Position numbers and translations under genes: made by a program. 53,188 bases of DNA from Shackletoniella antarctica (lineage in GTDB: Bacteria > Cyanobacteriota > Cyanobacteriia > Phormidesmidales > Phormidesmidaceae), in NCBI GenBank assembly GCA_003241845.1, contig QBMN01000006.1:1-53188 (forward strand), written 5' to 3'. Positions 5,407 through 47,369 of this stretch are shown in pieces. Below the pieces are notes generated by a model, which was given only the letters and a program-made list of their open reading frames with translations, was not told the origin of the DNA and made no database searches. How positions within the stretch are numbered: the stretch's first letter is position 1; each line of letters begins with the position of its first letter.

Positions 5407-5442
5407 ATTGCGGTGCAGGCTGCTAGCGGCCTGCACCGCAAT
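5407..5442 (+). terminator. Hairpin terminator of ado
   Basis: Perfect 14-bp arms (5407-5420 and 5429-5442, core GCGGTGCAGGC / GCCTGCACCGC) around an 8-nt loop, four bases after the ado stop and followed by a short T stretch. It suggests ado and aar are mostly separate transcripts. Confidence 0.75.
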
Positions 5443-43163: not shown

Positions 43164-43538
43164 ATGAAATTTTTCACAACAGCAATGCTGTTAACCCTCG
43201 GCATCGGGGCTACGTTCCCTGCCCTGGCGGAGATTATACCGATTCAGTCACTGCGTCAGCAGGAGGGCATTACCATTTCGGGTACCGTCGGCATGGTGGT
43301 GGGCAATAGCTTTACGCTCAGCGACGGCAGCGGCGAAATTATTGTCGATGCTGGCCCCCGCTGGTATCAAGACATCACCGTCACCCCAGGGGAGCAGGTT
43401 ACGGTTGTGGGTGAGTACGACAACGGCGATCTAGACGCCTCTCGCATTACCCGCGCCAATGGCGAAGTCATCACCATTCGCAATAGCCCCGGTCGGCCCC
43501 CCTGGGCAGGCGGCCCCAACCGTCCACAGCGGTGGTAA
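43164..43538 (+). CDS. YgiW/YdeI-like (BOF) periplasmic OB-fold protein
   Basis: 124 aa with a signal peptide (MKFFTTAMLLTLGIGATFPALA). The rest (GITISGTVGMVVGNSFTLSDGSGEIIVDAG, QVTVVGEYDNGDLDASRI) resembles the bacterial OB-fold (BOF) family, with the conserved V-G-F-L-D-G-G pattern. Family members in enterobacteria are stress-tolerance proteins. The Pro/Arg-rich tail (GRPPWAGGPNRPQRW) is unusual. It ends 41 bp before a 46-bp palindrome. Confidence 0.7.
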   Translation: MKFFTTAMLLTLGIGATFPALAEIIPIQSLRQQEGITISGTVGMVVGNSFTLSDGSGEIIVDAGPRWYQDITVTPGEQVTVVGEYDNGDLDASRITRANGEVITIRNSPGRPPWAGGPNRPQRW

Positions 43539-43579
43539 AACACTAGCGACCCCGTAGTCAGTCATAGTCATTCAGCCAG

Positions 43580-43625
43580 ACCCCATGCTTCCCCTAGATG
43601 AGCTCATCTAGGGGAAGCATGGGGT
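43580..43625. repeat. Perfect 46-bp palindrome
   Basis: Two 23-bp arms with no spacer; centre GATGAGCTCATC, arms ACCCCATGCTTCCCCTA... and its complement. It lies 41 bp after the BOF-protein stop. It could extrude as a cruciform or act as an RNA hairpin. Confidence 0.97.
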
Positions 43626-43680
43626 ATTCTGCCGTAACTACCAGGCTGATGGTTGTCGCGCTGCCCTTGACCGCAACCTG

Positions 43681-43729
43681 GCTCCACACCTGAGTGCCTT
43701 ATATGAAAAAAGGCACTCAGGTGTGGAGC
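43681..43729. repeat. Perfect inverted repeat, 20-bp arms
   Basis: Arms 43681-43700 and 43710-43729 (CTCCACACCTGAGTGCCTT and complement), loop ATATGAAAA. An additional weak pairing GGTTGTCG / CGCAACC lies just before it (about 43651-43678). Confidence 0.97.
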
Positions 43730-43744
43730 AGCATCGTCAAAAAT

Positions 43745-43776
43745 ACTAAATAGTACCCGCTCGGGTACTGTTTAGT
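43745..43776. repeat. Inverted repeat, 15-bp arms, near-perfect
   Basis: ACTAAATAGTACCCG and CGGGTACTGTTTAGT with a 2-nt loop; the single mismatch would be a G-U pair in RNA on one strand. It lies 54 bp before the next gene. Confidence 0.93.
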
Positions 43777-43830
43777 TGGCGAACGATTGATTTACATTTT
43801 GTATGTCAACCCGTTCAACGAGTTAAAAAA

Positions 43831-44403
43831 ATGACGATTATTTCTACATTTGAAGTACTACTCAAGCCTCAGCTACCGCCAGCAACTCAGCTGCCGCCGG
43901 GTTTCACTACTGTGCAAAATCTAGGTCGCAATCTTATTCAAGGTTACTTTCTCACTATCTCTAACATCAATGCCTTCGATCTGGTGCTATCTTTGGTTTT
44001 TACAACTCGCCTCCCTGCCGGGGTGACCTTAGATAAAATCATTACTTTTTCTGACACTTCTGGCATTAACACTGGTGGTTCTCTAGAGCCAGTCGGCGCC
44101 GGCAATAAGTTCAGATTTTCTCCACTTATTCTCCCAGTTGATGCCACAGCGCTGTTCATCTTGCAGCCCAGCCCCACTGATCAGGCCCTCGTCGATCTAG
44201 ATATTGAGGCTCGCGGCTTTGTGGAGGTGCAGCTGTCTTCATTGGCAGGCAATCTACCCCCAGGGGCACAGATTCAGGTGACAGCAGAACAGCGCGGTAC
44301 TTTCTTCGGCGATGCAACAGCCCCAAATATTGTCGACAGGGCACTTGATCAAATTGTCTACGGTCTCACTGTTCAAAATGGTGGCCTGATTACCCTTAAT
44401 TAG
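43831..44403 (+). CDS. Unknown beta-rich protein
   Basis: 190 aa. I do not recognise the family. It has no signal peptide or membrane helix. It is rich in beta-strand-like alternation (FLTISNINAFDLVLSLVF, VEVQLSSLAG) with Pro-rich turns (KPQLPPATQLPPG), suggesting a beta-sandwich. The TFFGDATAPNIVDRALDQIVYGL segment ends in a short helix. It lies alone downstream of three long inverted repeats, with only a weak ribosome site (GAGTTAAAAAA). Confidence 0.6.
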   Translation: MTIISTFEVLLKPQLPPATQLPPGFTTVQNLGRNLIQGYFLTISNINAFDLVLSLVFTTRLPAGVTLDKIITFSDTSGINTGGSLEPVGAGNKFRFSPLILPVDATALFILQPSPTDQALVDLDIEARGFVEVQLSSLAGNLPPGAQIQVTAEQRGTFFGDATAPNIVDRALDQIVYGLTVQNGGLITLN

Positions 44404-47331: not shown

Positions 47332-47369
47332 AAAGAGGGGTTCAGACCGGTTGGTCTGAACCCCTCTTT
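47332..47369. terminator. Bidirectional terminator before the RRM gene
   Basis: Perfect 17-bp arms (AAAGAGGGGTTCAGACC and complement) around the loop GGTT, with A and T runs at the ends. It can end both the upstream plus-strand gene and the minus-strand RRM gene. Confidence 0.93.

Follow-up and report, generated by a model that had tools for sequence, protein, structure and literature searches.

A cluster of three long inverted repeats in Shackletoniella antarctica, probably a rearrangement scar containing a putative operator

Analysis of a 53,188-nt stretch of the Shackletoniella antarctica genome (contig QBMN01000006.1, positions 1–53,188; referred to below as the window) identified a 292-bp intergenic gap carrying three long inverted repeats (I1, I2 and I3). 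This gap is probably the scar of rearrangements that left three features of different origin side by side: (i) I1, belonging to the upstream BOF-like gene, (ii) I2, the putative former terminator of an M56 peptidase gene, which would have been remade by a template switch, and (iii) I3, a putative operator in front of a probably foreign gene. The last of these contains an apparently undescribed on-switch, located before the same gene family in many cyanobacteria. The features of the region are listed in Table 1.

Table 1. Features of the gap and of the genes adjoining it (window coordinates).
Feature	Position	Strand	Description
BOF-like (bacterial OB fold) gene	43164–43538	+	Pfam BOF match (E = 1.3e-4) below its cut-off
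I1	43580–43625		Perfect palindrome; 23-bp arms (43580–43602/43603–43625), 100% paired, spacer 0; terminator-like, without T-run
M56 relic	43643–43693	+	Final 16 codons (RLMVVALPLTATWLHT) plus stop codon from a BlaR1-like M56 peptidase gene
I2 (whole)	43681–43729		20-bp arms (43681–43700/43710–43729), 100% paired, spacer 9; right outer arm (43720–43729) is GGTGTGGAGC
I2 (core)	43691–43719	+	10-bp stem TGAGTGCCTT/AAGGCACTCA, 9-nt loop; putative former terminator of the M56 gene
I3	43745–43776		15-bp arms (43745–43759/43762–43776), one mismatch (14/15 paired), spacer 2; around the conserved dyad
Conserved dyad	43754–43767	+	TACCC-N4-GGGTA (TACCC-CTCG type); putative operator of the next gene
−10 box	43793–43798	+	TACATT (TAN3T), 26 nt after GGGT; putative promoter
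Gene of unknown function	43831–44403	+	190 aa; closest homologues from Stenomitos and from a Cyanobium record

Three separate hairpins in one gap

The gap (43539–43830) extends from the BOF stop codon (43538) to the ATG at position 43831. The three unrelated inverted repeats described there in the first-pass annotation were confirmed, and their occurrence is far above chance expectation: six hairpins scoring at least 13 were detected in the window, compared to 0.05 per window in dinucleotide shuffles (n = 40), and RNA folding of the gap gave z = −13.6. Between I1 and I2 there is a fourth, weak pairing; it falls inside the relic coding sequence, and nothing supports it as an element. Two further long hairpins of the window, both intergenic, are located at 47332–47369 (17-bp arms, loop of 4) and 5407–5442 (18-bp arms, one mismatch, no spacer).

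The three hairpins are separate elements and do not form a single device. Each of them matched only itself and its own inverted arms in the genome, and a repeat family (REP, MITE) or mobile palindrome was rejected because no second genome copy exists. The suggested replication or recombination site gained no support either, since each of the three hairpins is present only once in the genome. When 59 related genomes were searched at the DNA level, the gap was not conserved as one unit; matches were obtained in four relatives, and these covered only the I1–I2 interval and the start of I2. As regards the individual palindromes, which the first-pass annotation had proposed to look for in relatives, none corresponding to I1 was found, a paired stem occupies the place of I2 in one relative (G010), and the I3 core precedes homologues of the next gene.

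An Rfam search of the gap yielded no credible family, but only chance miRNA matches far below gathering scores, and a search of the loci in seven relatives gave no match. A known structured RNA family was rejected, as no Rfam match reached the gathering score. The idea of a structured small RNA likewise gained no support, given the lack of a credible Rfam match and of conservation of the gap as a unit.

Long hairpins in the genome and genus

The host is a cyanobacterium with a 4.7-Mb draft genome in 287 contigs (99.9% complete), and hairpin rates were calculated from a 682-kb sample of this genome. The sample contains 38 hairpins of the I1–I3 class (20 with arms of at least 17 bp), 33 of which are intergenic, and 20 of these 33 lie no more than 100 nt from a stop codon. 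The two-contig genome of G010 contains 13 hairpins with arms of at least 17 bp in 200 kb, including a palindrome with 25-bp arms and no spacer.

As a control, the 3′ ends of ctaE genes were compared across the genus. In most genomes this gene ends in a hairpin with arms of approximately 13–17 bp, usually followed by T-rich sequence. The stems vary by species yet remain paired (CTAGCGGGGGTATTGCA here, AGAACCCCGGTTT in many others). Since the ctaE stems are unrelated but paired, and hairpins are abundant in the genome sample, long perfect hairpins with unrelated arms represent the normal style. The view that spacerless palindromes tend to be lost fails in this genus, as indicated by the 25-bp-arm case of G010 and by the ctaE ends. 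The abnormality ascribed to the hairpins therefore does not apply to them individually, long perfect hairpins being common in the genome, in G010 and at ctaE ends, but it does apply to their grouping: three hairpins within 200 bp are absent from the 682-kb sample, in which one pair was seen, and only the cluster of three is unusual here.

Two additional observations were made during this comparison. A second, broken copy of ctaE with three internal stops (G000:C11:12852–13370; L249) is located about 2 kb from the intact gene. G010 carries a family of zero-spacer palindromes (L095:18212–18245, L095:19292–19325 and L097:14333–14366) that share the core GTTCAAACGTTTGAAC, with flanks that vary yet remain paired; a shorter palindrome of this family is present behind BOF in G015.

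I1 and the BOF-like gene

BOF orthologues adjoin the same helicase gene in G015. The gene 3′ of BOF encodes a glycosyltransferase in G008, G015 and G003; here that gene is located on contig C23 instead, which indicates a rearrangement to the right of BOF. The gaps behind BOF in relatives are conserved neither in sequence nor in the downstream neighbour.

I1 begins 41 nt 3′ of the BOF stop codon and is very stable (MFE −43 kcal/mol). No T-run adjoins it on either strand (the plus strand reads ATTCTGCC). Its core was not found in the other genome contigs searched and is present in a single copy in the genome. Judged from its position, I1 is probably a terminator-like hairpin of the BOF side; position is the basis of this assignment because I1 has neither a T-run nor relatives. 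It would be a hairpin behind BOF of the long, perfect kind usual in the genus.

I2 and the M56 relic

The matches in relatives correspond to the 3′ ends of BlaR1-like M56 genes located behind a penicillinase-repressor-type gene, the M56 assignment being based on a match below the Pfam cut-off. A full M56 copy is present in most genomes of the genus and missing from this one. Compared with the BlaI-BlaR1 (M56) pair, the relic corresponds to the 3′ end of the M56 partner, which stands beside the repressor gene in relatives, although just 16 codons and the stop are left in the window. The left arm of I2 overlaps the relic and contains the end of the M56 coding sequence together with its stop.

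G010 also has a relic (C1:280272–280535), in which a hairpin occupies the same position; its loop is 9 nt long, its stem is different but paired, and TTTTT follows. This relic (L137) is independent, has one internal stop and adjoins its own intact terminator; G010 carries a full M56 copy as well.

The alignment of the window with G010 and G004 continues through the I2 hairpin. After the M56 end, both relatives have GATTTTTGG(G/C), where the window has GGTGTGGAGC, which is exactly the coding tail GCTCCACACC in reverse complement. In this comparison with two relatives only, from which the ancestral state was deduced, every difference in the outer right arm completes the palindrome (5/5 against G004, 6/6 against G010). 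The G004 sequence does not form the same stem as I2 (MFE −42 kcal/mol), which lies at the stop of the relic. In addition, GGTGTGGAGC stands in place of the T-tract of the relatives, and no T-run is found next to I2 on either strand (the plus strand reads AGCATCGT).

The changes in I2 support a template switch, being the footprint expected of one that perfects a quasipalindrome, and the earlier proposal of a template-switching hotspot gains support for I2 from this comparison. The I2 core probably served at first as an intrinsic terminator for the M56 gene, the body of which would then have been deleted. Afterwards, a template switch during replication would have replaced the T-tract with a reversed copy of the final coding bases. 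The stem would thereby have grown to 20 perfect pairs and probably have lost its function as a canonical terminator; with the T-tract gone, canonical termination is unlikely.

Quasipalindrome-associated template-switch mutations (PMC7202029) and the origin and maintenance of hairpins (PMC8794818) have been described previously. I2 shares with the former a set of clustered changes by which one arm becomes an exact reverse-complement copy of the other (PMC7202029). In contrast to those mutations, the event at I2 is deduced from distant relatives rather than observed as a mutation; in addition, it was coding sequence that was copied, and a terminator lost its T-tract to the copy. I2 may be viewed as an example from bacteria of a template switch that apparently made a terminator into a long perfect palindrome from coding sequence.

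Both I1 and I2 resemble the intrinsic (Rho-independent) terminators of cyanobacteria (PMC13289151) in having a GC-rich hairpin close behind a stop codon, and the G010 homologue of I2 has the T-tract too; I1 and I2 differ from such terminators in having no T-tract and stems longer than usual.

I3, a putative operator

The core of I3 (AGTACCCGCTCGGGT) recurs 5′ of the genus homologues of the next gene, even though the genes beyond it vary. In I3, the outer arms (ACTAAATA/TGTTTAGT) extend past the conserved dyad. The motif ACCC-N4-GGGT was found no more than 220 nt upstream of 18 of the 20 homologues from the order, and ACCC/GGGT with gaps of 1–3 or 5–8 nt upstream of none of the 20; only gap 4 is populated. 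Phylum-wide, TACCC-N4-GGGTA (at most one mismatch) precedes 24/80 homologues, compared to 0.2 expected in shuffles, with no recognisable dyad in the other 56, which are distant homologues.

The dyad is accompanied by a −10-like sequence at a fixed distance: TAN3T occurs 25–26 nt after GGGT in 20 of the 24 dyad-bearing homologues across the phylum. A search of the genus for the dyad together with the −10 box gave 51 matches (7 for a reversed control), and the same pattern was mildly enriched phylum-wide (36 matches versus 19 in the control, approximately twofold). The mean −10 score peaks at a spacing of 25, in a set for which some members had been selected by a pattern of fixed spacing; since this set was in part pre-selected, the two upstream scans (24/80 and 18/20) constitute cleaner tests. 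A large regulon of GTACCCGNNCGGGT alone was rejected, as its genome counts are not above the control and a signal appears only with the −10 spacing.

Judged from these sequences, the I3 dyad looks like the operator of an activator-dependent promoter, centred in the −40s. It would be bound by a putative dimeric regulator 25–26 nt before the −10 box of the 43831–44403 gene, presumably with activation rather than repression as the outcome. This reading was not among the options of the first-pass annotation. In class II promoters activated by NtcA, GTA-N8-TAC lies about 22 nt before TAN3T. I3 shares with them a dyad at a fixed distance before TAN3T, centred in the −40s, but its half-sites are TACCC/GGGTA with 4 nt between them, and it lies approximately 2–3 nt further upstream. 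Membership of the NtcA regulon was rejected because the half-sites form GTA-N10-TAC, not GTA-N8-TAC, and only gap 4 is populated among gaps 1–8. Literature searches retrieved no description of the operator string TACCC-N4-GGGTA.

I3 has ATTTTT behind it on the minus strand, the only T-run among I1–I3, and may act as a terminator in that direction. This T-run agrees with another explanation, that I1, I2 and I3 are all intrinsic terminators or 3′-end stabilisers accumulated behind BOF, as do the rule in the genus that long hairpins lie behind genes and the stabilisation of 3′ ends in E. coli by hairpins without a U-tract (PMC13289151). Such an origin is nevertheless unlikely: the I3 core is conserved 5′ of the next gene and not behind BOF, I2 belongs to the end of another gene (M56), and I1 and I2 have no T-run on either strand. 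The stacked terminators suggested earlier are thus retained in spirit and history for I1 and I2 (as the BOF hairpin and the former terminator of the relic), but no longer with a T-run.

The I3 core can form a hairpin whose loop has four bases, and the dyad of most genus homologues lies about 130 nt 5′ of the start codon, as would suit an RNA element in the 5′ leader. We regard this as less likely still than terminators throughout, since the −10-like box at a fixed 25–26 nt 3′ of the dyad places the dyad upstream of the start site, and no Rfam match was obtained. That one or more of the palindromes arose as an artefact of assembly or amplification is very improbable, and no assembly error is needed. 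The genome is a 287-contig draft, and an inverted repeat with 46-bp arms is cut by the start of one contig (C5; L057:1–121), a sign that the assembly breaks at some inverted repeats, but comparable palindromes occur in the two-contig genome of G010, other genomes conserve both the I3 core and the left arm of I2, and the arms are short and lie within a continuous 53-kb contig.

The preferred reading remains a scar, in which the order of remains would be (i) the BOF tail with I1, (ii) the tail of the deleted M56 gene with I2 and (iii) the promoter region of the probably foreign gene with I3. A striking hairpin cluster can accordingly be a pile-up of unrelated remains.

Candidate targets and the gene downstream of I3

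Only two other sites with the I3 operator and −10 spacing were found in the same genome: one (C243:34404–34448; L360) precedes a vanadium-bromoperoxidase-like gene and the other (C208:10221–10264; L361) is near a pentapeptide-repeat ORF. The same architecture is present 5′ of an animal-type haem peroxidase gene in many genomes of the genus (L209, L211, L205 and other loci adjoining carB). We tentatively propose, as a possibility somewhat short of probable, that TACCC-N4-GGGTA with TAN3T at 25–26 nt serves as operator for a cyanobacterial regulator not described before, which would control the gene family downstream of I3 along with genes for vanadium bromoperoxidase and animal-type haem peroxidase, and that this module moves between lineages with its target gene. 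I3 offers a conserved operator-promoter module with candidate targets, and the putative regulator could be caught with a DNA bait.

The protein encoded by the 43831–44403 gene shares 74–76% identity with homologues from Stenomitos frigidus and the Cyanobium record (76% for Stenomitos), compared to about 31–37% with genus homologues, and the GC3 of the gene is 0.45, compared to 0.80 for the helicase gene. Because of this Stenomitos-like identity and low GC3, the gene was probably acquired horizontally. Pfam and NCBIfam searches of the 190-aa protein gave nothing above cut-offs, and a PDB fold search gave nothing below E = 0.001 (the best match, at 0.012, was a pilin; TM 0.31). Its AlphaFold model is beta-rich (pLDDT 84).
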